Below are positions 1 through 62,470 of a stretch of 64,000 nt of DNA, piece after piece (the stretch's first letter is position 1; every line of letters starts with the position of its first letter). Below the pieces are notes generated by a model, which ran no database searches, was not told the DNA's origin, and worked only from the letters and a program-made list of their open reading frames with translations. Source of the stretch: Lycorma delicatula (lineage: Eukaryota > Arthropoda > Insecta > Hemiptera > Fulgoridae); the NCBI RefSeq assembly GCF_047948215.1, contig NC_134455.1, positions 293,347,647 through 293,411,646 on the forward strand. Direction: 5' to 3'. Both the position numbers and the translations under genes were made by a program.

Positions 1-484
1 AAAACAACAATTATAATAACCAAAATCAAAATAATTATAATAACAACCAGAATAAAAAATTAGTTAAATAAAAATAACTACAATCAAAATCTGAACAACA
101 ATCAGTACTATAATCAAAATTATCAATTTAACAACAATAATAACTGCAAAAACCAAAATCAGTATGATCACAATATAAACAATAACAACAGTTACAACAG
201 AATAGCAACAGTTAAACAATCAAAAGTGCAATCAATACAACAAATATCAGAATAACAACCAGAAAAATAATAACCAGATCAATCAGGATGACAACAACAG
301 CCTGCAAAACGTGCTCTACAACCAAAACAACTATAACAACCAAAATAATAACAATCAAAATCAAGCCAACAGCTATCAGATTAATAACCAGAACCAGTGC
401 TACAACAATAACAATCAAAAACAAAACAAAAGTCAAACTCCAGTTATCAGTAGCTATTTTCCCTCATTGATATGGACTAACTAA
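1..484 (+). pseudogene. Decayed exon 2 of the Asn/Gln-rich secreted protein family (copy F)
   Basis: The plus strand reads as broken AAC/AAT/CAA/CAG/TAT runs, the composition of exon 2 in the intact minus-strand genes, but with many in-frame stops and shifts. The end is diagnostic. At about 433-484 it reads TPVISSYFPSLIWTN then TAA, which aligns with the SSSWFQSLKWAV end of gene A. The tail therefore marks the true family frame and stop. The 5' part lies outside the window. Its orientation is opposite to genes A-C. I infer a dead paralogue; no long open frame remains. Confidence 0.75.
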
Positions 485-2769: not shown

Positions 2770-2920
2770 AAATTATGGGATAAACCTGAAATAATTAAAA
2801 TTAAAACAAACAAATAACCTTTTATAATTCCCATGGAAATGATTGTTAGAGAATTTTAATAGTAATTTGGAAGTCATCATATTGACCTTAAAATTACGAG
2901 ATTTAAGTGTTACTTAGCGG

Positions 2921-5880
<2,960 letters not shown>

Positions 5881-5946: not shown

Positions 5947-7292
5947 TTATACTGCCCATTTCAGTGACTGAAACCAGCTACTGCTATGCGGAATTTGATT
6001 ATTATTTTGCTTGTTTACATTCTGGTTATTGCTCTGGTTCTGATTATTCTGATTGTTGTTAGATTGATTCTGATTGTTTTGGTTGTTATTGTTGTTGTAG
6101 AAAGCGTTTTGGTTATTGTTCTGATTTTGATTGACCTGGTTATTGTTCTGGTTGTAGTTGTTGTTCTGGTTCTGATTATTGTAGTTGTTGTTGTTCTGGT
6201 TTTGGTTACTGTAATTGTTGTTATTATTTACATTGTAGCCATACTGGTTATTATTGTTGAAATTATTATTATTTTGATTGTTCTGATTATTATTCTGATT
6301 GTTGTTGTATGAGTTCTGGTTGTTGTTATTGTAGTTGTTTTGGTTTGGGTTATTGTTGTTCTGGTTCTGGTACTGATTGTTATTGTAGTTGTTTTGATTA
6401 TTGTTGTTATTTACATTCTGGCCATACTGATTTTGATTGTTGTAATTATTGTTCTGGTTTTGATTGTTGTAATTATTGTTCTGGTTTTGATTGTTGTAAT
6501 TATTGTTCTGGTTTTGATTATTGTAGTTCTGGTTGTTGTTATTGTAGTTTTGGTTATTATTGTTGTAGTTGTTGTTCTGGTTTTGATTATTGTAGTTCTG
6601 GTTGTTGTTATTGTAGGAGTTTTGGTTATTATTGTTGTAGTTGTTGTTCTGATGGTTGTTATTGTAGTTGCTTGCATTCGGGCCATATTGGTTCTGGTTA
6701 TTGTTCTGGTTATTGTTATTGTAGTTGTTTGCATTCGGGCCATATTGGTTCTGGTTATTGTATTGATTGTTGTTATTGTTGTACTGATTATTTTGGTTGT
6801 TGTTCTGGTTATTGTAACCATTATTATTGTTGTACTGGTTCTGATTGTTGTAGCCATTCTGGTTTTGATTATTGTAGTTGTTGTTATTGTTGTATTGGTT
6901 GTTTTGATTATTATGACTGTTGTAATTTACATTCTGACCATTCTGGTTCTGGTTGTTGTTGTAGCTGTTTCCATTGTTGTAATTACTGTTGTACTGGTTT
7001 TGATTGTTATTGTTATTTTGATTCTGTTGTCCATTCTGGTTATTGTTGTTATTATATTGATTGTTTTGGTTGTTCTGGTTGTTGTTGTACTGATTATTAT
7101 CGTTGTAGTTGTAATTGTTATTTTGATTGTTGTTCTGGTTATTATACTGGTTATTATTTTGGTTCTGGTTGTTGTTATTGTTATTCACGTTTTGGTTTTG
7201 GTTGTTATTGTTGTATTGATTACTGTTCTGGTTGTTATTGTTACTGAATTGATTGTTGTTGAACTGGTTTTGGTTGTTTCCGAACACGTTTT
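5947..7292 (-). CDS. Gene A exon 2: Asn/Gln/Tyr-rich secreted protein, low-complexity body
   Basis: Exon 2 starts after TTTTCAG at 7293 with ENVFGNNQNQ and runs uninterrupted to TAA at 5947-5949. With exon 1 (295 nt) the CDS is 1641 nt, 546 residues plus stop, and the phase-1 junction keeps frame. The body is almost entirely N, Q and Y with rare G, S, V, F and P. It is built from short variable units such as YNNQNQNNN (three in a row, coded at about 6430-6515) and a recurring YGxNxNN module. The end is IPHSSSWFQSLKWAV, whose conservation with gene C argues that this is the true C-terminus. No enzymatic domain is visible. By composition it is a prion-like, nearly uncharged polypeptide. A secreted structural, adhesive or fibre-forming role is my inference only. 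Confidence 0.85.
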
Positions 7293-10089
7293 CTGAAAAC
7301 AAAGAAAGATTATTTTTCACCACATTTAAAAAAAATATATATATTCAAAGTAGATAAAAATAGTATTTTAACAGTAAATGTAATATTAATCTGTATAATG
7401 TTTTAACATAAATGAGTATTTCTGTGCTCAAATAGTTCTACTCATATATGAATAAATGCTACAATCCATTTTATATTAAGACAAGTTTCAGAGAAAAATA
7501 GAACATCATCATTTGTTTTTAAATTATTTCTTGGAATCCTTTGAAAACTGAACAACTTTACATATGAATACTACTTCAAGTATGAATTCATAAATTAGAA
7601 TAATTCTTCAAGTTTGAATACATAAATTTGATGTTATATTTATTAATTAACATCTATACGTATAAAAACATTTCCTGATAGAATGATTCATTACCTAACA
7701 AAAACTACTGAAGATAAATTGATGAAAATTTGTATATATGATCTTGTTACAGTGTAAATGCATATTTAAAAAGATTTTTTCTAAATTCCGAGTTTAAAGG
7801 GTTAAAATAGATTTTCAATTTTTTTGAAACCTGATTATTTTTTTTTTTAATTTTTCGGCAACAAATGATGATATTAACTTAACTTTTGGTGTGTGTAATT
7901 TTCGTGTAAATATCTAAAAATTAATTTCTATATTTTTTTCAAAATTTAATCTTGAAATCGATGATGAAAGGTAAAAAAATGTGAACAATGCTTGCAAATT
8001 TTCACCGTTTCCAACTATACTAAACGAACAAACAATTTTATTTAATAAGAAGTTTACTTTTATTTATTTATTTTTTATTCGTTGTAATTAAAATAAAAGT
8101 AATTCATTAGATTGGGGGTTGCAAATAACTTCAGATAAAAATCTAAAAACCAATTTTGGGGTTTTATTGAATTTCATTATTTTAAGAAGAGCAATGTTGT
8201 CTGGTCCGACGGTTCAACCAATATAACCAATGTTACTCTTTGTACGACGCTATCAGCTGCATAAACAAACAAAAAAACAAAATAAATGTAATTAAAAATT
8301 TTTAAAACGGTCACTTCCGGTTTTTTTTTTTAAAAAGGTGTTTGTCGGATAAAGCTAAGACCGGGCAAAATACATTTATACCCGTACAAATGATGAGTAA
8401 CAAGTTATATTTTTAAGATGTAGGCCGACTGTTTTGAAAGCCGTATTGTTAGATCACTCAAAGTTAAGGCCTATACTGAGGTGAAACTAGCTGAGAAGAA
8501 ATTACAATACACTGACAGTTTTTATAAATTGAGTTTTATAAATTTTATAAATCGAATGAAGCGAGCCCTGACTTGTTAAACATCCCCTGACCATGAGGGA
8601 AACCGCAAGAAACTATATAGCCGGGGGAATCCGCAACGGAAATGCTAGTATATATACAGTTGTCATATCATATATATATATATATATATATGATATTTTA
8701 CAGGTAAATATTATTAAACATATTATTACAGATAACTGTATTACAAGTAAATTATTATTTTATTTACAATACATAAATAAAATTAGGGATTTCTATCTAT
8801 CTGTACTTTTTAAATCATCTAGGATTTCATTTATTTCATAAATTTACCCTACCTTTTAAGATATAAAATATAAAAATACAAAAGTATTATTTGTGAAATA
8901 TGCAATAATAAATTATTGCATTATAATTATAATAATTACATTGTAATCAATTAATCTTATTAAATGCATAAGAATAAATAAATTATCCATTATTCATTAA
9001 TTTATTATTACTATAACAAACTACATAGATTAAAATTAATTCTCGTTTTCTGTGTACCCCAATAACTCAAAAACTACATAACCGATTTCGCTGAAAATTT
9101 CAATTTTTTTTTTATTACTTGTCCCGGGAGTGTTTACATCTTATTAGTTTCATAATGTTATAATAATTTAATAACATAATATTTAATCACATAATAGCTG
9201 TCTGAGTAAGTCGATACTGATATAGATAACGATTAATATAGAAATGACATTCGATATAGATGATATCTCACGATATATTCAATGATATTAAATTTAGTAA
9301 AAGAGATTTTAAGTTATTTATTTATACTGTTTTTTTACGGTTTAATTCATACACTCAAATTTAGCAATAGTGAAGTATTTCCGTGTCAAGTCGTAAATAA
9401 TTCTTATGCATATAATTAAATACATGTATAGTATTCCATTTTGCATTGCAAGAAATCTGACATATTTAAAAAAATTTAACTCTGTTTAAAATTAACAAAA
9501 TCATTAAAATTATAAGATTTGATTACATGACCAAATTTTATTAAAACAATATTTATTTTTTTAAATTAAATCAAACCATTTTAAACTATCCTTTTTTGTT
9601 TTGTAAGAATACATTTTTCATAGAAATTAATTTTTTACTGCATACCCTACTTTTAAATTCTGCACGAAACTAAAACGATGGGTATATTTTAATTCAAATG
9701 TCACAAAAAGTATTACCGAATTTTTTTTAATTCAACGAAAACAAAATTTTAGGAAAAAAGAAATGCAGTTTATTTTTAATACTACTAAATAGAAATATAA
9801 ATTATTTTTTATAATTAAAAATTATAAATAACATATTTATAATAACTAATTATTAATAATAAAGATATTATAGTTAATCTTCTGTCTGCTGTTTTTTATT
9901 TCCATTATTTTATTTTTTATTATCATTATTTAATAATAATCAAATATATAGATAATAATTTTGGTGTGAATAATCAAAATGTGATAAACGTAATTTTGTT
10001 ATAATTAATTTATTTTAAAATATTTTCAATATGCAATGTATCATTTAAGCGATTGTACAATTTTAAAATATGCATAATCATGTACTCAC
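7293..10089 (-). other. Gene A intron 1 (2797 bp)
   Basis: Donor ATG|GTGAGT at 10084-10090 and acceptor TTTTCAG next to 7292. Phase 1: the last G of exon 1 joins AA of exon 2 to give Glu. Stretches near 9500-9640 (for example TTTTGTTTTGTAAGAATA) match the gene B intron near 25.0 kb and the gene C intron near 63.6 kb. The intron is about 1.1 kb longer than that of gene B. The extra length probably corresponds to the repeat-like region at 8050-9150. Confidence 0.8.
8050..9150. repeat. Repeat-like insertion within gene A intron (unclassified)
   Basis: This block is less AT-rich than the surrounding intron and holds phrases common in dispersed repeats, such as AACTCAAAAACTACATAACC near 9064 and AGCGAGCCCTGA near 8560, plus a (TA)n run near 8670-8692. 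Its size matches the excess of this intron over that of gene B. No terminal repeats or coding domain were recognised, so the class is open. Confidence 0.35.
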
Positions 10090-10384
10090 CATTTTGGTTC
10101 TGGTTGTTGTTTACATTCTGTCCATTCTGGTTGTTATTTTGATTCTGGAACTGATTGTTGTTCTGGTTATTTCCATTTTGATTATTGTTGTATTGGTTGT
10201 TGTTGTTGTTGTTGTTGAAGTATTGGTTGTTGTTCTGGTTTTGTTGTTGTTGTTCACTTATTGGAGAAACTTCATTCTGGTTGTTGAAGAAACCGCTGAA
10301 GCACTGTCGTTTGGATTGTCCATAAGGATGGACGGCAGCAGCAGCGAAGCCAACGAGAACCAACAATACCAATGAGGACTTCAT
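10090..10384 (-). CDS. Gene A exon 1: signal peptide, KR site, single cysteine
   Basis: The ATG at 10382-10384 opens MKSSLVLLVLVGFAAAA, a clear secretory signal peptide (n-region lysine, hydrophobic core, small residues before the likely cleavage near residue 17). VHPYGQSKRQCFSGFF follows. Lys25-Arg26 is a possible dibasic processing site that would leave Gln27, able to cyclise. Cys28 is the only cysteine in the protein. From about residue 44 the sequence becomes Q/N-rich. The exon ends in QNQN plus one G before GTGAGT. The start is supported by the signal peptide, by near-identity with gene B, and by a TATA box about 33 bp upstream. Reading past the donor gives EYMIMHILK, which is intronic. 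Confidence 0.88.
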
Positions 10385-10416
10385 GTTGAAGGTGACGATA
10401 CCATACCCGTCGACGT

Positions 10417-10424
10417 CTTATATA
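10417..10424 (-). promoter_or_regulatory. TATA box of gene A
   Basis: TATATAAG on the minus strand, 32 nt before the ATG. The same octamer stands at the same distance in gene B, followed by the shared stretch GTATCGTCACCTTCAAC up to the ATG. A TCAC initiator-like motif near 10392-10395 would put transcription start only about 10 nt before the start codon. Confidence 0.7.
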
Positions 10425-10462
10425 GTATATTGTTATCATCCCTATTCGGTATCAATTGTTAA

Positions 10463-10482
10463 GGTGATAGGTCATCCGACGT
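10463..10482 (-). promoter_or_regulatory. Conserved upstream box of gene A
   Basis: GGATGACCTATCACC on the minus strand about 80-95 bp upstream of the ATG. It is identical in gene B at the matching position, while the sequence around it has diverged. It is a candidate transcription-factor site; the factor is unknown. Confidence 0.45.
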
Positions 10483-10489
10483 TGATATT

Positions 10490-11950
10490 AAATTATTATT
10501 TTCAAAAATAAAATTGAAGAAAAACATTTACAAATTAAAAAAAAGTAGCATAATTAAATTTCGTAATTTATCTTTCCTACTCATGAAATAATTTCTTTTA
10601 TTAAAATAAAATAAAAAAAAAAACATAAAATACACAGAATAAACTTACTATGATGCCTCTTATTCTTTATTAAAAAAAAAGAAAGAAATTTTTTAATCGC
10701 AAAAACCAGGCCTTTCCCAGCACCTTTTTGTAGTATTTCACATTTAGACATTTAAAATAATAACGTACCCTATCTATTCTATTATAAGCTTTCTATAATT
10801 TACTTTTTCTATTAAATTTTATAAAAAAACGTTAAAGTGGTATTTTATTGTTGAATTCAGTACGATTTACATTAATACTTTCAACAAAAATGACGTTAGT
10901 AACATTTATATTGTACTTAATTTATAGGATTAAAAATTCGATAAAAAAGGAATATTCAGCTTAAAGGTTTTTACTTTCTTACTTATAAATAAGCCTACTT
11001 ATCATTTCGTTATTTTCGTTTATGCTAAAAATTTCATCACATTTAGCTAATGGCTGTTCTCCTCTGTTACTTTAGACATCAATCTTCTAATTTAATATTT
11101 ACAATTACCGATCGTGTAGTAGTGTAACACTATATAGCAACTATTAGAATGATTCGTATTAGTTAAAGAAATCCTTTGTTATAAAAAGGCTGACAACCAT
11201 GCAAGAGGGATATTTTCATATTTGTTACAGCTTCACTTCCTTGATAACGGTTGCAAATAATTTTAATTTTAGACGTTAGTTTAATATTAATAATTTGCTT
11301 ATATTTTATCTACGGAAAATGAATATTTGTGTTACATTGATTTTTAAAAATAAGGAAAAAATCATTTATATTTGCAGAAAATGAATCTTATGATAAACTT
11401 GATAACGTAAAAAAAAAATAAAAAATTTTTAAAATAAGTATTAGATGAGTGGTTGCTTTTGCAATTTAAATACCTTTTTTTTTTAATTTTACATCAAAAA
11501 GCTAATATTTTCCGATAAGATATTGTTTTTGAATTATTATCTACACTTTCTGTCAGTATATTTATTAGTAGAGCCAATGACCCAAACCATTAAATTAAAA
11601 AATTAAGTTAAAAAAAATGTTAAATTTGAGAAAATATGTTTTAATAACATTAAATAAATAAGGTTATTTTTTCTTATAGTCAAAAAAATAAAATTGGTTC
11701 TTCATAGAAATCTTATTTGATTGAAAATTTATGTTAACTAAAAAAAAAAAATCATTACAAAAAGCAATTGAAGCATATACTTTGTTTATAAAAAAAATAT
11801 TATTTATATAATATATAATTTTTTTTTTTCTTTTTAGAATTTAAAATCTAACATTAACGGTTAGTAAGTGATGATAAGAGTTAATTTATTTTGCATTCAG
11901 TGAGATTGAAAAAATTTGAATAATTACATAATTTGACCCGTAACAAAAAA
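10490..11950. other. Upstream spacer of gene A, duplicated at 55.8-56.85 kb
   Basis: No gene seen. From about 11200 the sequence (GTTACAGCTTCAC, TTTATCTACGGAAA, ATTTGCAGAAA blocks) aligns by eye with 55890-56040 and onward to 56850, so it belongs to the duplicated unit of the array. Confidence 0.6.
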
Positions 11951-11953
11951 TTT

Positions 11954-14900
11954 CAAAATCATCATGTGGTATTTTGCATTCTCCAGGTCGCTGGCATCAC
12001 TCTCATCTCCATTTGTTTCTGTCACATGATTCTCTTTTCGTCTTATGACAACCTTCACTACCCTTTATGTCACTTATTAACTTCAGCCTCTTCCTTCCTC
12101 TTCTTTCTTCATCATCAATGCAGCCTTAAAGAACTGTATTTATTATTCCTTTTCTCTTAATTATATATCCGATTCAGTTTCCTTCCCTCCCTCCTTCTGA
12201 TAGTCTTCAATATTGTTCTATCTTCATTAAATCTTCTTAATATTTCTACCTTAGTTACTCTGTCCATCCACTTTATTTTCTCCATCCTCCTTTTGACCTA
12301 CATCTCAAAAGCCTCTATCTTACCTTTTTTCTTTCTATCCAGTGTCAATGTTTCACACCGTACTAAAGTACAATCCAAATATAGCATTTTGCCAATCTCT
12401 TCCTCAGGTTCAGAACCATGTCGCTGCAGAGTAGGATTTTTTTAATAAAAAAGGATTCATTTACCATTACAATTCTCGTCTTAATTTCTTCTTTACTCCT
12501 CCATTCTTCAGTCAGTACTGTCCCGAGATATAGGCATCTTTTTCCTTGTTCCATTTTCCTTCTGCTGTTATAACATCCATATCTTTTCTCTCATTCAACT
12601 ACATTAATTATGTTTTCATCACATATTCCTTCATTCTTTCTTCCAACGCTTTTACCAATCCTTGTAATGTCTGAGTGTCTTTAGCTACAATCAGCAAATC
12701 ATCAGTAAATCTGACTAAGTTATATTTCTTCCACCTATACGTACTCCTTTTTGGCCAGACAACATTTCTTTCAAACTTTTCCTCGGCATAAAGGGTGAAC
12801 AGTATTGGTGGTGATAAACAGTAGCAGCCTTTCCTCACTCCTCTCCCTAATACTAATGAATCCTAATAAAGCCAGTTTCTTTTATAAGGATTTGAATACT
12901 AGATCATGAATACCGGTGTTCGTTGGTGGTTGGGTTTCAATTAATCACACATCTCAGGAATGGTCGACCTGAGACTGTACAAAACTATACTTCATTTTAC
13001 ATTCATACATATCATCCTCTGAAGCAATATCTTACAGTGGTTTTCCGGGGGCTAAACAGAATTTAAAAAAAGAGAGAGCCAAATACTAACCAATTTGTGT
13101 GATTCACATTTATTTTCATGCTACTTTTTCCTTCAGATACAATTTTCTGATCAATCTCCTATCCTTCCAATCAACTCTCTTTTGTTTGAAAATCTCAAAT
13201 AGCTTTCCCCCCAGTTCTCTATCGAATCCGTTTCCATATTTATAAAACGCGAGCTCAATCCTGTACATCTTTCAAAAGAATTCTCTACAATCAATTACCA
13301 ATCACATATATCATTAATGTTTTAACAAGCTCTTCTGGCCATTCTCCAGTATTATAAATTTATTGCACCTTGAGAGTATTTCATTTACTCCTTCATCTTC
13401 TAAACATTTAAAGATTTCAATTAGAAGTTAATCTATTTCCGTTTCTTTCCTGTTCTTCTTGTATTTCATAGCTTGTATACATTCAGATCTCAAAACAGGC
13501 GGACTTTTCTCGTCTTCCATAACTTCTTCTTTCACTTCAGCTTCTTGTGCTTTTCCGTTTCCTTTTCCCTATGTACAGGTCTTCAATATACTCTTCCCAC
13601 CATTTTTTTATTTCACCTTCTATAAACCCTTTTTCCATCTTTCTTCTGAATTTCTCTCATTTTGTAAATAAAATTTCTTCCATCTCATGTAGATATTTTT
13701 TACCTTCTTATAAAATATATCATACTTCTTTTTCTTTTCTAAATCTTCCATTTCTATGGCTATATCTTTAAATTCTTCTTTTAGACACCTTTTCCTAGCT
13801 ATATGTGTTTCTCTTTTTAATTTGTTGTTCAATTATCGATAGATTACTCTGTTGTATTCTCCTTCTTTATTTTTATATTTTTTCTTTCTTCATTTTTCTT
13901 ATCATTTATTTTGTTGCCCAAGGTTTCTTTGCCTGGATGCCTTTGTAGAAACCAATTGCTTTCTCTACAGCTTCCCTCATAGATGATTTTATCCTTGACT
14001 ACGACTTTTCTGCAGGTTCATTTTCTCTTTTACCTTCAGTAATTGCCTATCAGCATTTCACCTCTTTTAGTCTAACTATGCCCTCAATACTCCTCTATAT
14101 TCTATTTCTTCACCTACATTGAAGTTAAAATTCTTTTTAATCTTATTTTCATTTCCATCATTAACAGAATATTACCACTTTATTTGTCGGTTTCTGGAAC
14201 CTCATTTTCCTTTTTAACAGTTCCTGTATCTATTTTCAACAAAAGATTATCTATCTAAAAGCGAGATCCATTTTTTGATCTTGTCTAAGTATATGTTGTT
14301 CTTTCATGAATCTTAAAAAACGTTTTCGTAACGAACAACTCCTTCTCTTAGAATAATTCAATCGACCTGTTTTCTCTCTTATATCGTGTACCCAATCATT
14401 ACTTGCCCACTTTCTTTCAATTTTCACCTTCTACCACCACTTCTTTCCAGTCCCCCATAATTATTTTACAGCAATCTTGTTGATTTGCTAATAACTCCTC
14501 AATGGTACTGTACATCTTTTCAATATCTTCATCTTTGTACTCCGACGTTGGCCTGTATGCCTGACTATTACTACATTTTTTGACATCATTCCAATCCTTA
14601 AACTCATTACTCAATCATCCAGATAGATTACTTTTTGTATTCTACTTGTTATACTATTTTTTAGTTATTCTTACTCCGTATATTCCTCTTTCAATTTTTA
14701 AGTAATATAAGGTCGAATGGGAAGTCATTTTATCTGCGGAATAATTAACAAAAGACAACATTACCATGATTCCTGACTAGGAAATAGTAATACAGTGGTA
14801 TTCTGTTGCCTTCTGAATCCTAATGTGATTAACTTCCTATAATTATTTCTCCCAAGCCTCCGAAAAGGACGTTGGTACTTATAGATACGGAGCTCCTTAT

Positions 14901-15069
14901 CCCGGGAGCCATTCGGTCCCATAGTTAGTTAGTCGCTTGTATACACCAATCAACTATAATATGTACAGTCATTACCACTCTCTACCGTGGGGAAGTGAAT
15001 ATCAGGATTTTCCTTTATGAAATATAAGACCTAATTAGCATTTCTTAGACTCTCTAGTACTTTTAGAGA
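11954..15069 (-). mobile_element. Degenerate LINE with endonuclease and reverse transcriptase remnants
   Basis: Reading the minus strand from about 14.6 kb, an endonuclease remnant has YRPTSEYKDEDIEKMYSTIE and CKIIMGDW (14417-14614). A reverse transcriptase remnant has CYCLSPPILFTLYAEE and VRFTDDLLIVAKDTQTLQG (12608-12838). A post-RT block has YLGTVLTEEWRSKEEIKTRI (12363-12554). Frames are broken repeatedly. Comparison with the paralogous spacer at 56840-56900 brackets the insertion: GACCCGTAACAAAAAATTT lies on the 3' side near 11953, and ACACAAAGTTTACC at 15071 on the 5' side. The element is of the same broad clade as the one at 1.0-2.4 kb but a different family. The GC-richer stretch at 14.84-15.0 kb is probably its 5' leader. 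Confidence 0.75.
12880..13065 (+). mobile_element. SINE, copy 2, nested in the LINE
   Basis: Contains ATACCGGTGTTC, CACATCTCAGGAATGGTC, CATATCATCCTCTGAAG and GGGGGCTAAACAG, the body blocks of the SINE at 2.5-2.77 kb, then an A-rich tail. It interrupts the reverse transcriptase region of the LINE and is in the opposite orientation, so it inserted later. The tRNA head is truncated here. Confidence 0.7.
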
Positions 15070-15070
15070 G

Positions 15071-18000
15071 GACACAAAGTTTACCAAATTTTATTTCATA
15101 ACATTATTAAAATAATTATGCAATTACATAACAAAATAATATATTGTACACAAGTTTAAATGATAGTACAATTGGTTAAAGTAGTGAAAATACAGAGTAA
15201 TATTTTAGATGTAGGATTAAAGTTTACAGCAATTTATTCAAATCTATTTCTGATTGATTATTTCCTGATTTCAAAAAGAGAGTAGGTTCCCACTTCGATA
15301 CTTTCTTAATTTTATTTATGAACATAATTATTCTTACCAAATTCCAACTGGCTACTTAAAGTACACAACTATGATCCACACAACTAATCGCCATCAAATC
15401 TGAAATCACCTCCAATTCAAACGTTAGTAAGTTACTGGTCTTTTTTCTTTTAATTTTCTATTGACATAAAGTGAAGATCTTAATAAAAAGAAATTGGAGG
15501 ATAACAGAAACTTTAACTTGGATATTTTTCATTCGTATTATTAAAAATGAATAATAACGACGAAAAGTAAAGAAAGTGTAATATTCTTGACAGTTATAAG
15601 GAGTTTTTCACGTCTAATTTTACTCTTTTAGGTATGTAAAATGACGGACCAGTTGAGCACGTTCTGTTTATTTTATTTAGTTTTATAAAAGTTTTTATTT
15701 GACTGTAATTTATTATAAAAATTTTCTTTTAAAAAATTTATAAGTCGAAAATTTTAATGAAATATTTTTTTTAACAAAATTATCAGGAGAATTGTTAAAG
15801 CTTCAAAATTCAAAAGAAAATTATGTTTCAGAAATATATTTACTTTAGTTGTTTTCTTGTTTATTTATTCTTGTTTTATTTGGTATACAATTACCGCTTA
15901 ATATGATATGGACAAACACCAATTTGCAAAAATGTTCAATCTATTAAACATTGTTTCAACTCTTTCTTCCTTTTTTTTTATATTATTTTTTAAAATGGAA
16001 TGCTGGATTGTTGTACGCAATTTTTACACATTCGTGTACCTTTCAAAGTAAATTCAAGAAAAAAATATTATAATTATTTATTAATCGTAACGGTTGAACC
16101 AAGTTTCTCCAAAGTGTAGCAAGCATTATTTAATATCATTATACAGTTGAAATACATTATTACTTTTGAAAAATACTTGAAGGAGATAATGGTGATGCAC
16201 GTAAATCTTAATAAAACAAATTATGAAAAAAAAAATTTCTTTTAATAATTGCTAAATTAATGGGTAAAAACCCCTACATAAATATGGTAAGAGATATAAA
16301 AAATTCTTGGGTGAGCTGCGAAAAGTGGTACGGGTTCTTGTCATAATTGGGTTTTTTAATTGCAAAATAATTCGAAAATTTAATTAAAGATATTATTTGG
16401 TTCATTTATTATTATTGAAAGATTAGTTTTGAAAAAATTACTTTGTTCATCATCTAAAAGAGAAATATACTGATAATGATTTATCATGTTCAAAAAATTT
16501 AATAATTATGTTAATTTATTTTTACAATAATATTTTTTAAGAAAGAATATAAATGGAAAAAAAATCGAATCATTACATTTCTTTTGAGATAAAATATAAA
16601 AAACAAATTAATAATAACCGTTATAATTAAATTGAATTAGTCTGATGCAACTAAATGTGCTATATCTCATAATGCTTATATAAGTCGTGCTTATCTTTTC
16701 TTTTTCAAAACTAATAAAATACGTTTTCAGAATTCTAAGTACTGCTTAAGGCGACTTAAATTTATACGCATTGTAGAGAGATAACTTTTCTTTAGCCAGT
16801 TTACACGCCACAGTTCTTTAAATGTAATTTCTCGTCCTCGTTCGTGTGCCTCGATTGGTATGAACACACGTTGAAAGGATAGTCTGTCTTTCTCTAAAAA
16901 TCAGTAATGTATGTATTTTTAATAAAAGTAGTTGTTTAATTTGATCTTCTTTTTCGTTTAAATTTAGATTTGTTATAAATATAACATAAGCCGGAGATCG
17001 CAATAACCTCTTAACCAACACCATTTGTTTCTAGTTTCTCACCTCATGCCAGATCCATAAATGTCTTTATTAAAATTGTCTCCAGAAAGAAAACTTAATT
17101 GTCGAAGTTTAACTTAAGATATCATCTGGTTTAGTTCTTATGGTTTTTGGTAGGTATGCAAAAGCTTACTAACTCGAATCACAGGTAAACATTTCATAAT
17201 TTTATCTTCCTTAACAAGTGGAATATTCTTTGTTGTAATGGAATCCATATATAATTTTCTTGTTTTACTAATTTCTCTTATCTAGCAATATTTTATTCGA
17301 TTAGTAGATTGAAATTCTTAGATTATTAAATTTCATGGGGTATTTCTTGGACATAGGAAACCAAATTTTGTCTCAAGTTATCATTTTCATCTGGATTCGA
17401 GTAACTACCCATAGTAGAGAATTTTCTACAGTTGTAGGGAAAAACAAATTCTGTGAATGCTATCTGAGATTGTATTATTATTATTAATTTTTAATTGCTT
17501 CTTTGTATTAGTTCCCTTTAATGTGAACAGTAAAATAATTTCCTTGCTGATTACTTTGTTGAGATAATTAAATTATCGTAAACAGTTTTTTTCTAGTTTC
17601 AACGTCCAAGTAAAGTGATTTAAAACACTTCAGGTCAGTTGAAGTCGTTGATTAATCTATGAAAAGGAAATTATTTCGAAAAAACTGAAAAATTATATAA
17701 AAATTGGCAAGGAAAGAAAATGACTACGTTTTTTTAAATAATAAACTACGTAACAGGACACAATTTTTCAGTTTATTTCATTGATCTAATAGTGTTTGTA
17801 AGGTATCTTATGTTGTATTTTCATCTTTCTGGAAGATTTTCATTAGTAGAAGATAATAACTTTTATTTTCTGCAAACAATGTTAGATTCGTTTTTATAAA
17901 ATGTAAGCTTACATTTTAAATTCTATTTAATTCTATTTTTTAAATCCTATTTGTTTATTTTTTTTTAATTTTATTTTTTATTCTATTTTAATTTAATTAA

Positions 18001-18824: not shown

Positions 18825-19794
18825 CGAAGTCTGCAAATAAAGTAATGAGACTAGTTTTTTTTTGGCAGCCAAAGTGGCAACACTGTAAGTTACTAGTAAA
18901 AATATGGTTATATGAACAGCTATTTAAATTAGGTATTAACGTTTTTAATTTATTGTTGCCACGTGAGATGTAAACAAACTTTTCGCGAAACGAGTTTTTG
19001 TTGTGCGTTACTAATTATGATCAAAGTTGTGCAACTAAGTTTTATGTTAAACTCGGTGAGAATGCTACTGAAACATTTCAAAATTAAAAAAGGAATGTTT
19101 TTAGGTGGTTTAAAGCATTTTCAGATGGCCAGGAATCAGTTGCGGGCGATTCACGGTCTGGAAGACCGTTAACGTCAAAAAATGACGACATGTTCAGCGA
19201 ATCAGAGACTTGATACGGTACGACCGGGGAATAACTGTCAAAATGATTGCAGAACAATTGAATTTGAACCATACCACAGTCCATCAAATTTTGACAAACG
19301 AATTGGACATGAAAAAAGTTTGTGCAAAATTGGTCCCAAAAAACCTCACTGTTGAAACAGAAAAACAACGGGGCGGAAGTGTGCCGCGATCTTCTAGGGC
19401 GAATTTAAACTGATCCTGATTCTCTAAAAAAATGTTATTATCTTCTGTAAATCATCTTGGATATTTGAGTACGACCCAGAAACAGAACTTTAAAAATGTA
19501 AAACTGACAACTTTCTCTCATAAATCAATGAAGCTAAATAAACGCCATTTTTTCTTTAATCTTATTTTTACAATGCTTTTTCATAATTTCAAACATAAAA
19601 AAAAATATAACCGACCATCTGAAGAATATTCCATTTTCTCAGTTTCAACACTGCTATGAAGAGTGGGAGAACCGTTTGAAGCATTGCGTGGCTTTCCAAA
19701 GAAACTGTTTCGAAGGTGATAGGGTCCATGTACAATTGAATTGTAAATAAAAACTTTTTCTGAACCAGTGTCATTACTTTAATTACTGACGTCG
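18825..19794 (+). mobile_element. Mariner-family DNA transposon, decayed
   Basis: Imperfect terminal inverted repeats: CGAAGTCTGCAAATAAAGTA at 18825 against CGACGTCAGTAATTAAAGTA read inward from 19794. Between them is a broken mariner transposase. Its N-terminal part has the mariner-like WFKAFSDGQESVAGDSRSGR (about 19107-19165) and IRYDRGITVKMIAEQLNLNH, a helix-turn-helix region (19210-19270). Its end has CYEEWENRLKH and FEGDRV near 19654-19725, the usual C-terminal motif. The catalytic middle is deleted or scrambled and at about 970 bp the copy is shorter than a full mariner. A TA precedes the left end; the right flank has become a TG microsatellite. Confidence 0.85.
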
Positions 19795-21980: not shown

Positions 21981-21984
21981 GTTT

Positions 21985-21990
21985 TTTATT
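21985..21990 (-). terminator. Polyadenylation signal of gene B
   Basis: AATAAA on the minus strand. It sits downstream of the ancestral stop region of gene B (about 22050), at the position matching the signal at 60876-60881 in gene C. Confidence 0.5.
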
Positions 21991-22044
21991 AAGATATATT
22001 TTGTTAATACACAGTAAATCAAGTTAGGTGTTATAAAAATAATC

Positions 22045-22183
22045 AAGCTTATTTACATAGCCCATTTCAGTGACTGAAACCAGCTACTGCTAAATGGTAT
22101 TTGTTTTTTTGCATTCTGTTATTGCTGTCTTGGTTTTAATTGTTCTGGTTGTTGTTGGCTTGATTCTGATTGTTGATGATGGC
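22045..22183 (-). pseudogene. Lost C-terminal segment of gene B
   Basis: Downstream of the gene B stop, the minus strand continues with Asn/Gln codons, a second in-frame TAA and a shifted frame carrying the tail block that matches SSSWFQSLKWA of gene A. This shows where the ancestral coding region ended, at about 22050. Confidence 0.65.
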
Positions 22184-23790
22184 TTAATTCTGATTGTTGT
22201 TGTTTTGATTCTGATTGTTTTGGTTATTGTTATTATTGTAGACAGCATTTTGGTTATTATTGTTCTGATTTTGGTTGATCTGATTATTGTTCTGGTTCTG
22301 GTTGAAGTTGTTGTTGTTTACATTCTCGCTATGCTGGTTATTGTTGTTGAAATTATTATTTTGGTTAGTGTACTGGTTGTTGTTCTGATTTTGATTGTAC
22401 TGATTATTGTTCTGGTTGCTGTTATTATTGTTATTCTGGTTTTGGTTGTTGTTATTGTTGTTCTGATTTTGGTTGTTATAGTTCTGGTTGTTGTAATTGT
22501 TTTGGTTCTGGTATTGGTTGTTATTGTTGTAATTGTTCTGGTTATTGTTATTCTGGTTCTGGTGATTATTCACATTCTGACCATACTGGTTTTGGTTGTT
22601 ATTGTAGGAGTTTTGGTTATTATTATTATTGTAATTGTTCTGATTCTGGTTGTTGTTGTTATTGTAGTTGTTGTTCTGATTTTGGTTGTTGTTATTGTAA
22701 TTGTTGTTCTGGTTTTGGTTGTTGTTATTGTAGCTGTTGTTCTGGTATTCGTTATTGTTGTTATTGTAATTGTTCTGGTTGTTGTTGTTCACATTCTGGC
22801 CATTTTGGTTCTGGTTATTGTTGTTGTTGTACTGGTTGCTTTGGTTGTTATTCTTATTATTATTGTATTGGTTCTGGTTGTTGTAATCGTTTTGGTTCTG
22901 GTTATTGAAGTTGTTGTTGCTGTTGAATTGGTTATTCTGGTTGTTGTTGAAATTCTGACCATATTGGTTCTGATTATTGTTGTTATTGTAATGGTTTTGA
23001 CTGTTGTTGCTGTTCTGGTTCTGTTGTTGATTCTGGTTATTATTGTTGTTGTAGTTGTTCTGGTTTTGGTTGTTGTTATTATAGTTGTTGTTCTCATATT
23101 GGTTGTTGTTATTGTAGTTATTGTTCTGGTTTTGGTTGTTGTTATTGTAGTTATTGTTCTGGTTTTGGTTGTTGTTATTATAGTTGTTGTTCTCATATTG
23201 GTTGTTGTTATTGTAGTTATTGTTCTGGTTCTGGTTGTTGTTCACATTCTGGCCATTTTGGTTCTGGTTATTGTATTGATTGTAGTTATTGTTGTTATTG
23301 TTGTACTGGTTATTTTGGTTGTTGTTCTTATTGTTATAAGCATTATTATTATTATTGTACTGGTTCTGATTGTTGTAATCGTTTTGATTCTGGTTATTGA
23401 AGTTGTTGTATTGGTTATTCTGGTTGTTGTTCACATTCTGACCATACTGGTTCTGATGATTGTTGTTGTATTGGTTTTGAATATTGTTCTGGCTCTGTTG
23501 ATGATTCTGGTTATTTTTGTTGCCATATTGATTATTTTGATTGTTCTGGTTGTTGTTATTTTCGTACTGGTTCTGATTGTTATAATTTACATTTTGTCCA
23601 TTTTGGTTGTTGTTATAATTGTAATTTTGATTATTGTTCTGATTATTAAATTGGTCATTGTTTTGATTCTGATTGTTGTTGTTATTGTTATTATAGTTGT
23701 TCACATTTTGGTTCTGGCTGTTGCTGTACTGACTACTGTTCTGGTTGTTATTATTACTGTACTGATTTTGATTGTTTCCGTACACGTTTT
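22184..23790 (-). CDS. Gene B exon 2: Asn/Gln/Tyr-rich body, prematurely ended
   Basis: Exon 2 begins after TTTTTCAG with ENVYGNNQNQYSNN and is open to TAA at 22184-22186. With exon 1 it encodes 638 residues. The body is N/Q/Y repeats with recurring YGQNVNNNQNQ and YENNNYNNNNQNQNNN modules, the latter in near-identical tandem blocks at about 23050-23230. Beyond the stop, the family tail is still legible in the DNA at about 22050-22090 (SSSWFQSLKWAM-like) but is out of frame and preceded by a second stop. Compared with A and C, this gene has lost its conserved C-terminus. Whether it still makes a working protein is unknown; the long open frame before that point argues for recent or tolerated loss. 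Confidence 0.8.
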
Positions 23791-25446
23791 CTGAAAAAGG
23801 AAAAAATCCATTATTTTTAACAGCGCCCATCTCATAAAAGCGTTAACCTATAAAAATTGATTTACAAAAACTGCATTTTGAACGTGTAAGCTATTCTGTT
23901 GTTTGAAGAAGATAGTTTAAAAATCTGTTCAGTGAGTTTTTTAATACTATTACGAAATAATGGACAATAACAATATCATATGATCTCTGAACCACCGTTA
24001 CTGTATCTAATCGACAGTAATTTTCACTTACACGGGTAACCGAAAAATTATGCAAAAGAATATTTAGCGACCTGATTGGTGATCACGAAAACGATCTTCT
24101 CGCTTACATTTTTCAAGAAATATTCTGATTAAAATTTTGTTATTCTATGATTCCGACTGTTATCTGATAAAGGAGAAAAAAGATATTTTGTCAGAATAAG
24201 CCAATAACCCGATGGCTTAGTATCCAACATTATTTTTTCGTATATTTATTTTTTGTTATTTAAATCTAAATTTCACATCATGTTTGATATACCATTATCT
24301 AACTATATTGAATCGGTGAATTTATTAATTAACAGTGAAAAAACAAGATAAGTCAATCCATGTCGGGATCACAGAAATATCCATAACTGAATTCAAAAAT
24401 ATATGTTGTTCCGCAGATGAATAAGTAAATGCTATAATAATTTTAAAAGTATTTATATTATTATTATATTAGTTTCATATTTTAGTATAAAAATTGAATA
24501 TGTTACATAGAAAAAAATACATATCATAATTACTTTCTTTTTTCAATATTTTCTTAGTATCTTTTGGGAAAGGATGAACATTTCAGGTATGAATTCTGTC
24601 TCCGGTACAACAGTTAGAATATTATTTTATTTGTCATAAATAACGATAATGGAAATTTCTGTGCATATATATTGTTTTAATCTTTCATGGTTTTTAATTA
24701 ACAGTATTGTTTTGACTAATTGAAATATAATATATGAAATTTGTGAAACATATAATCTATGATTTATTGGTTAGTATGTAAGGATTAATAGATTATTTAC
24801 TAATTTTATTGCTTTACTAATCACAATTAAATCTAAAGATAAGGTTTTATTTTCATTAGAACAAAGAAGAAGTACGAATACGTTAATACATGCCAAATTA
24901 TGCTTGTTAACTTAATTAAAATAATTATAAAACCATTTGAAAACAAGATCGAATTTTATCAAATAAAATTTATTTCCGGTAATTAAATCAAAATATATTA
25001 ACAATCCTTTCTTTGTTTTGTAAGAATATTTTCTCTTATTAAAGGTTTAATTAAAACGGTACACTTTTAACATTTCATAAAATTGAAATATTGTACTATT
25101 TTAAATATGCAAAACAGATTTATAGAATATTTTTTTGTAATTTATTAGTAACAGCGACCAGATTTTAGAAAACGAAATTCATTTACTTAAAAGTTTACAT
25201 CAATATCTTTCACACTAATAATTTAAAAATTATAACTAATAATAATCTATTATTATTATTAAACATTGGTAATAAAATATACAAAAAATCAATCTTTGTG
25301 GTGCTGTTATGCCTATCAATAATTATTTTGCTAATATTTATGAATAATAAGCATATGATATCCATGATATTATCGGTCCTAAAATAACTATAATTTAATA
25401 TTTTAAGTGATGGTACAAATTTAAAATAAGAGACCCAAGTACTCAC
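23791..25446 (-). other. Gene B intron 1 (1656 bp)
   Basis: Donor ATG|GTGAGT at 25441-25447 and acceptor TTTTTCAG beside 23790; phase 1 as in gene A. The segment from about 24540 to 25050 aligns with 63180-63660 in the gene C intron (shared TCTATGATTTATTG, GAAAACA-GATCGAATTTT and CTTTCTTTGTTTTGTAAGAA blocks). The small minus-strand frame at 25210-25449 is intronic. Confidence 0.8.
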
Positions 25447-25756
25447 CATTTTGGTACTGGTTGTTGTTATTTTGATTGTTGTTTACATTCTGTCCATTCT
25501 GGTTGTTGTTGTTGTTTTGATTCTGGAACTGGTTGTTCTGGTTATTTCCATTTTGATTATTGTTGTATTGGTAGTTATTGTTATTGTTGTAGTATTGGTT
25601 GTTGTTCTGGTTTTGTTGTTGTTCTTCACTTATTGGAGAAACTTCATTCTGGTTGTTGAAGAAACCGCTGAAGCACTGTCGTTTGGTTTGTCCGTAAGGA
25701 TGGACGGCGGCAGCAGCAAAGCCAACGAGAACCAACAATACCAATGAGGACTTCAT
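25447..25756 (-). CDS. Gene B exon 1: signal peptide, KR site, single cysteine
   Basis: The ATG at 25754-25756 opens the same MKSSLVLLVLVGFAAAA signal peptide as gene A, then VHPYGQTKRQCFSGFF and NEVSPISEEQQQ. Only a few residues differ from gene A before the Q/N-rich part, which varies in length. The exon is 310 nt (103 codons plus one base) and ends in YQNG at the donor, giving YQNENVYGNN after splicing. The near-identity of this exon against strong divergence of exon 2 suggests selection on the secretion and N-terminal part, or recent gene conversion. Confidence 0.88.
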
Positions 25757-31224: not shown

Positions 31225-31299
31225 AAATCGGAAACAAAAGCTAAATGTAAGAATTAACTGATATAAAAATGAAAATTATTGTGTATGGTCAACTAAAAC

Positions 31300-32830: not shown

Positions 32831-33081
32831 GATTAGAATTGTTGCATAATCTTCATCCCAGATATAAGATCCCATTTTTAGCATTAATGAAAGGATCACC
32901 TAGCCGTCGTTTATCGGATCAGAATCAGTTTCATGAATTTTCCAAAAATTTTAAATATAGTTGAATGATCTGAGATATTTTTGCTTGTAAAAAGGAATGT
33001 AACAGTATTTTTATGTTTAAATTTATTAGGAAGACAACCACTAAGAATATATCCTAGCTTAGTCTCTTGAATAGGATATCT

Positions 33082-33483: not shown

Positions 33484-33689
33484 CTATATTACATACAGCA
33501 GTAGACAAAGTTACATTTTTGTTTAATTGCGAACAAAAATCATTATTACTAAATTTATCATTACTTAATTTATAATCATTAAATTTATCACTATGAACGA
33601 GTGTGTTGTGTCTTTGTTGACATAAATTACGTAAGTTATTTAAGTAACATTGATTGTTAATATTTCTTTGTGAAAACACACGAGACAAA

Positions 33690-44307: not shown

Positions 44308-44348
<41 letters not shown>

Positions 44349-45590: not shown

Positions 45591-45599
45591 ATATAATAA

Positions 45600-45734: not shown

Positions 45735-47025
45735 GTAAGTGCATGATTGATTACACTATTTTAAACTTGATTACTTTTTAAACGGTAAGTTTTCAACCAA
45801 TTATGAAATTAGAGTGTCATGAAAAAGACAACTTCTCGTAATAGTATATAAAATAATAATAATAAACAGCAGAAATTAAAAAAAAAAAAAATAAGAAATT
45901 TTAATTAAATGCTTAATAATTCGTTTAGAAAGAGCTAAATAATTTTTGTTTAAATACCTTTGTTATTTGTTACAACAGTTTTATTTAAATTGTGTACATT
46001 ATTTTCAATTGTACGGTTAATCTTTAGATTTTTAGGCAAAAAAAATCTTAAAATAATAAATCAAAAATTATATTCACTTATTTAAAGAAAAAAATTGAAA
46101 TCAAATAAAATATTGATAACTTTCTTAGAATATTTTTTTACAAAGTAGTTTGAATATTTATTTATGTGTATACTCTTAACTATTATGTATTTTATATTTT
46201 ATCATTATTTTACATATTCTTTGTTATAAGTATCCTCGTTATCGGAAATTTAATTACTTTTTCAATTATAAATAAATTATCATTAATAAGTAATTATTTT
46301 TTATTTTATATATTAATTTAAAAAATCTTACTACACGAATAAATTATTTATATTTTAATAATCAAAATTTCATATAAAATGAAAAAAAATTTACACTCTA
46401 TTTAATTAAGGTAAATAAAATAATATTCATATTTCGTGTTACGTGATAACCGCAATGTTCTTATTCGATCTGATCGATTTATCTGAGACAAAATCATGTC
46501 ACGTATAAACATTAGTTTTGAGTAGATGCTCTGATTTCTAGCCATAGTGAAGTTTTTTGCTGTTACAGTTTTATTTGTTGGGATTAGTAAGTATTCTTTA
46601 AAATAAATTCATTCATATATTCCGTAATATATTTAATAAACATGGAGGTAATTTAGTTAATAATTTTTAATGTTAAGAAATAAAGAATACTGAAGTAAAT
46701 AATTGAATAAATGATGCAGGAAGACCATCTATTAGTTTAGTGGATATTCAGACGCAGGGAATGTAGTACGATCCACCAGATAACGGTTGAATTTTAACAG
46801 AACTACCATATGTTTTTCGGAATATTTTTACAAAACTTTATTGCGAATTTTGATAAAATTGCAACCTATTAAGATACTAAAACACCTATGATTCACCATA
46901 TAATTCCTCCAGTACGAGGAAACCACTTTCCATTATATACATTACAACGGGGCGTCATATTTATTATACATAAGTATAATAATTGAAGGACATTATACAA
47001 AAATGTAAAACTTCTTTTTTTTCAG
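45735..47025 (+). other. Intron remnant of copy D
   Basis: About 1.29 kb between the relic donor GTAAGT and the relic acceptor TTTTTTTTCAG. AT-rich, no other feature. The part 46550-46960 is shared with unit 2 (53580-53970). Confidence 0.6.
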
Positions 47026-47340
47026 AGAAGGTGTTCGGGAACCACAAAAACCAGTTTAATAACAACAATAACCGATAGAACAGTAACAATAACCAGAACC
47101 AAAAAACAACCAAAATAATAACAACCAGAATGGATAGAATGAACGAGTAAATAATTACGATTAGAACTATTAACATTGTGAGCAATTATAACAACCAGAA
47201 TAACCAACACAATAAAAATAATGAAAACGATTGCAATAACAAGAACCAGAACAATTACAACAATCAGAACCAGTACAACAACAATAAATAAAAAATAATA
47301 AAAATCGACAACATGGAAAATTTCAATAATAATAATAATA
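47026..47340 (+). pseudogene. Copy D exon 2 remnant
   Basis: After TTTTTTCAG the sequence GAGAAGGTGTTCGGGAACCA corresponds to the ENVFGN start of intact exon 2. Broken Asn/Gln/Tyr codons follow (AACAACAATAACC, AACCAGAA). Stops and frameshifts are abundant. The similarity ends at about 47340, where jockey-type LINE sequence begins. Confidence 0.75.
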
Positions 47341-51770: not shown

Positions 51771-51894
51771 GTATAATAAAACTGTTAATTCTACTAATTA
51801 AACACTTATGATGTATTAGCTTATTCATTTGCTAATACAAAATTATTAAATATTGAAAGAAAAGGGTATTTATATTACACCGGTTTTTATATGG

Positions 51895-52045: not shown

Positions 52046-52059
52046 GTTGCTTAATTTTT

Positions 52060-53967: not shown

Positions 53968-53979
53968 ATAATATTTATT

Positions 53980-54837: not shown

Positions 54838-54907
54838 ATAATATTTATTATATAGCTTAAGTTTAGAAGTCTGAAATACAACAATGCAAAAATCTTTTTC
54901 TTTTCAG

Positions 54908-55245
54908 AAAACCTGTTCGGAAACAACCAACACCAGTTTAGCAACAACAATAACCAGTAGCAACAAGCAGAACCTGAATGGATAATTGTAAATAATAACA
55001 ACCAGAATCGAAACAACAACAACCAAAATAATAACCAGAATTGATAGAATGTAAATCATAATGATGAGAACCAGTACAGTAATAATGAAAATCAGAATAA
55101 CCAAAATAATCAACATAATAACAATAATATAAACGATTGCAGAAACAAGTCTAGGACAATTACAACAATCAGAGCTAATCTAGTACAACAACAATAACAA
55201 ACCAGAATGTCAAAAATTTTAATAATAAAACTAATAGGGCGTTAA
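54908..55245 (+). pseudogene. Copy E exon 2 remnant of the Asn/Gln-rich family
   Basis: After CTTTTCAG at 54901-54907 the text AAAACCTGTTCGGAAACAAC matches the exon 2 start of gene A (AAAACGTGTTCGGAAAC). Broken Asn/Gln codons with stops follow, parallel to copy D exon 2 (the AACAACAATAACCAGTAG and AACCAGAATTGATAGAATG blocks). Its exon 1 is absent. Confidence 0.75.
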
Positions 55246-60941: not shown

Positions 60942-62470
60942 TTATATAGCCCATTTCAAAGATTGAAACCAGCTATTGCTAACTGGAATTTTGTTATTGT
61001 TTTGGCTTTTTGCATTTTGATTGTTGTTGCTGCTCTGGTTCTGATTGTTCTGGTTGTTGTTGGCTTGATTCTGATTGTTGTTTTGATTCTGATTGTTTTG
61101 GTTATTGTTGTTGTTGTTATTGTTATTATTGTAGAGAGCATTTTGGTTATTATTGATCTGATTATTGTTATTGTTCTGGTTCTGGTTGAAGTTGTTGTTC
61201 ACATTTTGGCCATACTGGTTATTGTTGTTGAAATTATTATTGTTTTGGTTACTGTACTGGTTGCTGTTCTGATTTTGATTGTACTGGTTATTGTTCTGGT
61301 TGTTATTCTGGTTCTGGTAGTTGTTATTGTTGTTTTGGTTGTTGTAATTGTTCTGGTTTTGGTATTGGTTGTTATTATTGTAATTGTTCTGGTTTTGGTA
61401 TTGGTTGTTATTATTGTAATTGTTCTGGTTTTGGTATTGGTTGTTATTATTGTAATTGTTCTGATTATTGTTATTATTTTGGTTCTGGTAGCTGTTTACA
61501 TTCTGGCCATACTGGTTTTGATTGTTATTAGTGTAGGAGTTTTGGTTGTTATTATTATTGTACTGATTCTGGTTGTTGTTTACATTCTGGCCGTACTGGT
61601 TTTGGTTGCTGTAATTGTTGTTGTTATTGTATTGGTTGCTGTAATTGTTGTTGTTATTGTTTTGGTTGTTGTAATTCTGGTTGTTGTTATTGTAGTTGTT
61701 CTGGTTGTTGTTATTGTAATTGTAGTTCTGGTTTTGGTTGTTGTTATTGTAGTTGTTGTTCTGGTATTGGTTGTTGTTATTATAGTTGTTGTTCTGGTAT
61801 TGGTTGTTGTTATTGTAGTTATTATTTTCATTCTGGCCATATTGGTTCTGGTTGTTTTGGTTATTGTATTCGTTGTTGTTGTAATTATTTTGGTTATTAT
61901 TGTTCACGTTCTGGCCATTTTGGTTCTGGTTATTGTATTGGTTGTAGTTGTTGTTGTTGTTATTGAACTGGTTGTTTTGGTTATTGTTGTTCTTGCTATT
62001 GTAAGCATTATTATTGTACTGGTTCTGATTGTTGTTGTCATTCTGATTCTGGTTATTGTAGTTGTTGCTGTTCTGATTATTTTGGTTATTATTATTGTAT
62101 TGGTTCTGATTGTTGTTGTTGTTGTTGTTGTTGTTGTACTGGTTTTGACTATTGTTGCTGTACTGGTTCTGTTGTTGATTCTGGTTATTGTTATTGTTGT
62201 ACTGATTATTTGGATTATTCTGGTAGTTATTATTATTGTTCTGGTTCTGATTGTCATAATTTACATTTTGTCCATTTTGGTTATTGTTGTTGTTGTTGTA
62301 TTGGTTGTTATAATTTTGATTGTTGTTCTGGTTATTAAATTGATTGTTGTTTTGGTTCTGATTGTTGTTATTATTATAGTTGTTTACATTTTCGTTCTGG
62401 TTGTTACTGTACTGATTACTGTTCTGGTTATTATTGTTGTACTGGTTCTGGTTGTTTCCGTACACGTTTT
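60942..62470 (-). CDS. Gene C exon 2 (partial gene): Asn/Gln/Tyr-rich secreted protein body
   Basis: Begins after TTTTTCAG with ENVYGNNQNQYNNN and stays open for 509 codons to TAA at 60942-60944, keeping the same phase as A and B. It is made of N/Q/Y runs with YGQNVNNN modules. Three successive identical 12-residue units (NNQYQNQNNYNN) are coded by a 36-bp repeat at about 61350-61450. It ends in KIPVSNSWFQSLKWAI, the conserved family tail. Exon 1 is not in the window: the intron runs past 64000, and intron sequence similar to that of gene B is visible to about 63660. The frame is intact throughout exon 2, so the gene is probably functional. Confidence 0.83.

Follow-up and report, generated by a model that had tools for sequence, protein, structure and literature searches.

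The planthopper-order insect Lycorma delicatula (Hemiptera, Fulgoridae) carries, within a stretch of 64,000 nucleotides (bases 293347647-293411646 of contig C1, NC_134455.1; this whole stretch is referred to as the window, and its numbering is used below unless a position is given in Mb), three members, A, B and C, of a gene family encoding long chains of Asn, Gln and Tyr. A, B and C are real genes under selection, a conclusion that follows from exact phase-1 splice junctions, from a promoter and leader conserved to a far higher degree than the introns, and from a ratio of non-synonymous to synonymous change (dN/dS) in exon 2 of about 0.08, below the neutral expectation. The best reading of their role, judged from sequence, is that the products would contribute to an extracellular material. 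A first-pass annotation of the window had put forward both ideas: the selected family, with its signal-type leader and fixed two-exon design, is borne out, and the extracellular role keeps the standing of a proposal.

Selected genes of a fixed two-exon design

The splice junctions that had been predicted from the letters, 10090/7292 in A, 25447/23790 in B and the acceptor at 62470 in C, proved exact, and the proposed arrangement of a shared leader exon, a phase-1 intron and a low-complexity exon 2 recurs in every one of six modelled genes of the local cluster (cluster 1; A, B and C together with G, H and J of the flanking DNA), for which the words GGTGAGT and TTTTCAG were sought by script and the longest frame was taken. 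In all six the phase-1 intron, of 1656-4160 bp, has a GGTGAGT donor and a TTTTCAG acceptor, and AATAAA occurs, on inspection by eye, at most 150 bases after the stop (in B, after the tail). WFQSLKWA followed by one residue forms the C-terminus, in frame, in five of the six, the exception being B, whose product of 638 residues ends where the frame closes at 22184, without the conserved C-terminus. It should be emphasized that the description of A, B and C as genes of the window holds in part: A (546 residues) and B have complete exon pairs, B with its early stop, and exon 1 of C lies at 66490-66178, in flanking DNA about 2.2 kb beyond the window (loci L009 and L025), giving a protein of 613 residues. 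Similarly, the frames of 509-535 codons claimed for exon 2 were recovered in C and B but not in A, where the exon is shorter (Table 1).

It could be argued that these loci are not genes but expanded CAA/AAC simple repeats that are open by chance. Indeed, one antisense frame is likewise open in B and C, and thus an open frame by itself is weak evidence. Dinucleotide shuffles of the second exons of A, B and C, however, retained an open sense frame in 0/1000 cases for each gene, and in neutral simulations both copies of a pair stayed free of stops in 0/300 runs under each of six settings. The closest pairs gave exon-2 dN/dS values of 0.077 (J/H) and 0.078 (A/G), whereas neutral simulation at the divergence of these two pairs returned medians of 0.36-0.70 and a minimum single value of 0.19. 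The remaining 13 of the 15 pairs, with proportions of synonymous difference (pS) of 0.69-0.93, are at or near saturation; three of them yield dN/dS values of 0.063-0.073, and the ratio was incalculable for 10 of the 15 pairs. For exon 1 of A against B, dN/dS was 0.095. With leader, splice sites, tail and promoter conserved as well, an origin as chance-open repeats is scarcely credible, and the claim that these are real genes despite their repetitive appearance was upheld. Gap lengths in multiples of three and an excess of third-position differences between divergent copies were dropped as evidence because codon-shuffled controls were nearly equal.

Mean identity across the 15 pairs was 0.950 over the first 48 codons, 0.746 at positions -150 to -1 and 0.622 in the 150 bases after the stop (in B, after the tail), compared with 0.457-0.482 at the intron ends and 55% upstream beyond the promoter. 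The promoter is of TATA type, and TATATAAG and GTCACCTTCAAC are invariant in all six copies. In most copies two or three GATA-like words (for example ATGATAAC and TTGATA) lie a short way 5' of the TATA box, those of A at 10425-10475 (by eye). Synonymous similarity among the six copies is far greater in the leader (first 48 codons) than in exon 2, and identity there far exceeds that of the introns, a pattern suggestive of gene conversion or of a constraint acting on DNA or RNA as such; slippage within the repeats may in addition inflate the value for exon 2.

Composition, codon use and paralogous clusters

After the leader, the chains of the six complete genes contain 55.4-57.4% Asn, 18.8-20.6% Gln, 8.1-9.2% Tyr, 1.7-2.7% Gly and 2.7-4.4% Ser, with Asn and Gln together making up 74-78% of the chain. 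There are 8-17 charged residues per chain, in agreement with the initial description of an Asn/Gln/Tyr composition almost without charge, and just 3-6 N-glycosylation sequons despite 277-356 Asn residues. The leader, MKSSLVLLVLVGFAAAA, is hydrophobic and of signal type on reading by eye, a conserved short N-terminal segment follows it, and the conserved tail WFQSLKWA is likewise short and hydrophobic. The long Asn/Gln-rich, charge-poor region with its aromatic residues has the composition of prion-like low-complexity sequence. In each of the six genes the core aromatics are spaced more evenly than in 500 of 500 shuffles, and once repeated 10-mers had been collapsed the spacing still surpassed 981 to 1000 of 1000 shuffles in evenness. 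Within cells, evenly spaced aromatics in low-complexity chains favour liquid-like over solid assembly.

The six genes favour codons ending in C (AAC for 0.63 of Asn, TAC for 0.83 of Tyr, TTC for 0.83 of Phe) and use CAG for 0.55 of Gln, against 0.26, 0.31, 0.18 and 0.27 for AAC, TAC, TTC and CAG, respectively, in the longest frames of eight kinase loci. Two actin pieces, L051 and L052, also favour C (TAC 0.70 of 10 and 0.86 of 7). The strong shift towards C-ending codons suggests that the family is highly expressed.

In the flanking DNA that was examined, 80 kb to the left and 40 kb to the right of the window, the array extends leftwards with three additional complete genes, G (ATG at -21912), H (-33438) and J (-56145), and with decayed pieces at about -14.5 to -14.9 kb, -51.3 kb and -73.8 kb; between 66.5 and 103 kb on the right no copy of leader or tail was seen. 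Across the 2.2-Gb genome of 14 contigs, where the count for a large family is to be read as a minimum, 26 matches were obtained with a 48-residue leader query: 25 were on contig C1 (E <=0.0175) and one, at chance level, on C3 (E = 2.9). A composite query built from two cluster-2 leaders returned the identical 25 on C1 plus a chance-level match on C6 (E = 0.97). The 25 leaders fall by place into groups of 12, 10, 2 and 1 (Table 1), and a tree of them groups mostly by location, with only 7 of 22 inner branches well supported. The three decayed leaders of cluster 1 (L039, L041 and L042, at 293.241, 293.274 and 293.346 Mb) lie on the plus strand, opposite to the nine intact ones, and form one group in the tree (support 90/83, under the tool's star); they look as if an older subfamily had died.

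The paralogous genes share a recognizable leader and, in the two cluster-2 genes followed to exon 2, a related tail, and their core residues are changed. Cluster 2 shares the leader of cluster 1, and WQWF (RQWF in L030) replaces the RQCF of cluster 1; three cluster-2 copies have NNQFQNN-type repeats already in exon 1, with 5.6-6.5% Phe. Exon 1 is 244-313 nt long in cluster 1 and reaches 1303 nt in cluster 2, and exon 2 measures about 1.1-1.9 kb. Exon 2 was sought for two of the ten cluster-2 copies: the L035 gene continues, across a phase-1 intron, in an exon 2 located in L047, for a total of 1065 residues with the C-terminus SSSWFQSLRWAL, and downstream of L030 lies an N/Q/Y-rich exon 2 with the C-terminus SKNWIQSLKLAI. 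The codon preference of cluster 1 is repeated in the three cluster-2 exon-1 sequences and in the L035 gene, and is weaker in cluster 3 and the copy at 311 Mb. A general role was rejected both for the one Cys of cluster 1 and for its KR pair, since cluster 2 is without the Cys and nearly always without the KR pair; a disulfide or propeptide step is thus not general.

Asn, Asp and Gln abound in exon 1 of cluster 3, and one copy of this pair is interrupted by a stop. Located 5 kb downstream of the second copy, an open frame (L049, 147.145 Mb) encodes 62% Asn together with 9.8% Cys, which recurs in an NNC/NGC pattern; the position and composition of this frame suggest that it belongs to the cluster-3 gene. 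Because this frame terminates at another donor-like site, that gene may have three or more exons. The 311-Mb copy contains repeats of Asn, Asp, His and Lys. The residues set among Asn differ by cluster, with Tyr in cluster 1, a larger share of Phe in cluster 2 and, probably, Cys or charged residues elsewhere.

Decayed copies and other features of the window

Table 1. Gene models and decayed copies in the window, with the genomic locations of all leader copies (window numbering except where Mb is given)
Feature	Position	Strand	Details
Gene A promoter	10385..10530	-	TATATAAG at 10424-10417, starting 40 nt 5' of ATG; GTCACCTTCAAC directly before ATG
Gene A exon 1	10090..10384	-	295 nt, ATG at 10384, phase 1; leader MKSSLVLLVLVGFAAAAVHPYGQSKRQCFSGFF and beginning of N/Q/Y region
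Gene A intron	7293..10089	-	2797 bp, GT-AG, phase 1
Gene A exon 2	5947..7292	-	N/Q/Y low-complexity core, tail IPHSSSWFQSLKWAV, TAA stop 5949-5947; 447 codons + stop
Gene A polyadenylation signal AATAAA	5884..5889	-	from sequence
Gene B exon 1	25447..25756	-	
Gene B intron	23791..25446	-	1656 bp
Gene B exon 2	22184..23790	-	534 whole codons open, then stop; conserved tail not included
Remainder of B locus	22056..22183	-	further stop, frame change, tail letters IPFSSSWFQSLKWAM in different frame (within 22118-22056)
Gene C exon 2	60942..62470	-	tail IPVSNSWFQSLKWAI
Copy D	1..475	+	3' part of decayed gene, tail-like TPVISSYFPSLIW; leader at -1823..-1695 (L011)
Copy E	46995..47340 (approximate ends)	+	decayed; short exon 2 after TTTCAG acceptor, internal stops
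Copy F	54876..55236 (approximate ends)	+	decayed exon 2 after TTTCAG acceptor, several stops; duplicate of E
Cluster 1	293.19-293.41 Mb		9 stop-free leaders + 3 decayed
Cluster 2	151.34-151.60 Mb		10 leaders
Cluster 3	147.12-147.14 Mb		2 leaders
Single copy	311.26 Mb		1 leader

Self-comparison of the window revealed three patchy, non-continuous segmental duplications: 20772-25147 / 60191-63777, which carries B and C; 11279-17175 / 55920-58764, the stretch preceding the B/C duplication; and 42704-46965 / 49775-53979, comprising the regions 5' of E and F. Insertion of a long interspersed nuclear element (LINE) as the reason for the shortness of copy E was rejected, as a decayed tail-like stretch continues past the repeat (by eye). 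Pieces of LINE-type reverse transcriptase lie at 28024-29161, 40281-40625 and 51345-51629, in stretches richer in G+C than their surroundings, although two of the four Pfam matches are below or near the family cut-off; a further such piece was recognized by eye at 53987-54443. Remains resembling a Bel-Pao type retrotransposon occupy 30782-33691 (by eye, with one weak protease match below cut-off), what we take to be remains of a mariner-type transposase lie at 19000-19750 (by eye), and at 2920-3166 GTGA is repeated in tandem, nearly without error, about 62 times.

Proposed function and relation to known systems

The earlier statement that no named family could be attached to these proteins stands. 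A Pfam scan of whole A and of exon 2 of B and C returned no family at E 0.1, the leader had no match among PDB sequences, and the N-terminus, compared with a database of 5.8 billion proteins, gave three candidates, none at E <=1. This database seems poor in eukaryotes, as suggested by a reverse-transcriptase query for which only one of 557 candidates reached E <=1e-10. The literature supplied analogues but no named relative of these proteins.

We lean towards the view that the family provides bulk secreted structural proteins, which would cohere through aromatic contacts in an Asn/Gln matrix. The extracellular role is strengthened by the 25 copies on one contig, by the codon preference, by the even spacing of the aromatics and by paralogues in which the leader (and, in the two followed to exon 2, a related tail) is kept and the residues set among Asn are changed. 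In such a system the protein would be produced in large amounts in a gland, where the uncharged Asn/Gln chain would be kept soluble or liquid; outside, it would set into a gel, glue or fibre via Tyr-Tyr contacts and perhaps cross-links, with the conserved ends serving handling and end-to-end or nucleated assembly. Mechanical or cross-linking behaviour would then differ in the paralogous clusters, where Phe is more frequent and where Cys or charged residues probably take part. The product could be the salivary sheath, an egg coating or egg glue, or the spermatophore, among which we make no choice.

Several observations weigh against this structural, secreted reading of a selected family. The assignment of a signal peptide rests on reading by eye. 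Over the first 48 codons pooled pN/pS (proportions of non-synonymous and synonymous difference) is 0.256, and the H/C pair shows no synonymous and three non-synonymous differences. Codon-shuffled sequences reproduce both the third-position excess and the gaps of three-base multiples, which leaves these features little weight in divergent pairs. The Cys and KR pair of cluster 1 are not retained in cluster 2. The actin control for codon use (six pieces) is small and mixed, with L051, L052 and L055 leaning to C, L054 split, L053 not leaning and L050, which by eye resembles an actin-related protein, leaning least. Finally, among the Heliconius proteins considered below, the H. erato homologues of the Asn-rich group are without the Asn-rich repeat, and thus the repeat need not be essential there (PMC2621208).

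It could also be argued that the products are a nitrogen-rich store or nuptial gift, digested by the mate, the embryo or the animal itself, with physical state a secondary matter. Asn and Gln, at 74-78% of the chain, carry two nitrogens each, and many copies with a codon preference fit any bulk product; this proposal, however, leaves the even aromatic spacing, the conserved WFQSLKWA tail and the shift from Tyr in the direction of Phe between clusters unexplained, and we consider it improbable. A saliva effector that acts on the host plant, rather than a structural protein, would suit a plant-sucking bug, the orphan secreted families of such insects often being salivary, but an uncharged low-complexity chain of 500 residues with no known domain would make an unlikely effector, and we give this explanation very little credence. 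There is a slim chance that the family instead forms a defence or trapping gel in the blood, in the gut or on the surface. The signal-type leader and the clustered, changing paralogues would fit such a gel, as would the GATA-like words seen by eye in the shared promoter, which many gut and fat-body genes also have. Gel-forming defence proteins do exist: Sgf1 and Sgf2 of Drosophila are described, in the cited part of the report, as mucin-like, unglycosylated proteins that glue fungal spores, but they are small and rich in Pro, Thr and Ser (PMC13373891).

The structural reading may be extended, although we offer this as a possibility on the doubtful side, to a natural library of extracellular materials on one chromosome, in which leader, splice phase and tail would be kept and the cohesive residue would be set cluster by cluster, the clusters serving layers or stages of one product and the aromatic spacing being selected for setting from liquid to gel outside cells. 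Asn and Gln are among the leading amino acids of phloem; if the animal feeds on phloem, an Asn/Gln matrix would also be among the cheapest for it to make. Structural proteins that are secreted and repetitive are already known, but Gly, Ala, Ser or charged blocks largely make up the most familiar silks and glues. An amplified family on an uncharged Asn/Gln matrix, its cohesive residue varied by cluster on similar scaffolds with related leader and tail, would put the sticker-and-spacer idea to a natural test in an extracellular setting, and would show how an aggregation-prone composition can be secreted at a high rate without harm.

The sticker-and-spacer model is borrowed from intracellular prion-like low-complexity domains, which have an Asn/Gln/Tyr composition with evenly spaced aromatics and are mostly parts of RNA-binding proteins. 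The lanternfly family resembles these domains in composition and in aromatic spacing, but consists of whole chains with a signal-type leader, in which no folded domain was found. In gene architecture the likeness is to the fibroin heavy chain, FibH, for which the consulted portion of the source describes two exons, one intron and a long repetitive exon 2 between conserved ends (PMC11241164); two exons and one intron are found in all six modelled cluster-1 copies and in the L035 gene. The same portion gives FibH an exon 1 of 39-45 bp and an exon 2 of 7-29 kb, whereas the corresponding lengths here are 244-1303 nt and about 1.1-1.9 kb, and it lists Gln and Asn among the six commonest residues in Lepidoptera, together with Ala, Gly, Ser and Pro, with Gly, Ser and Arg leading in Trichoptera (PMC11241164). 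In contrast with repeats led by Ala, Gly and Ser, Asn and Gln alone exceed 74% in cluster 1. The louse nit sheath proteins LNSP1/2, in the passages drawn upon, form a secreted low-complexity adhesive that contains Gln and is without known relatives, but they are built of QA, GA and polyQ blocks with no Asn matrix (PMC6328571). An insect-made solid material dominated by Asn-rich protein is the hard cocoon of the oriental moth Monema flavescens, of which, as far as the cited section goes, Asn-rich proteins are the most abundant component (PMC11241164); the likeness is one of description only, and the material is a moth cocoon.

The nearest published analogue appears to be the Asn-rich group of Heliconius male accessory gland proteins, an abundant group of secreted type that is one of three repetitive groups proposed as parts of the spermatophore (PMC2621208). 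The structural role is a proposal there too, and the Asn-rich group was undetected in spermatophore extract (PMC2621208). Its features are abundant transcripts, a predicted signal peptide and no known relatives, together with a non-repetitive N-terminus followed, in H. melpomene, by Asn-rich repeats, several close paralogues and Tyr-rich sister groups (PMC2621208). These features were shown in butterflies (PMC2621208), and it is by description that the two families are likened. The layout itself, with a signal-type leader (by eye), a non-repetitive N-terminus and an Asn-rich repetitive remainder in a multigene family, is also that of the lanternfly genes.

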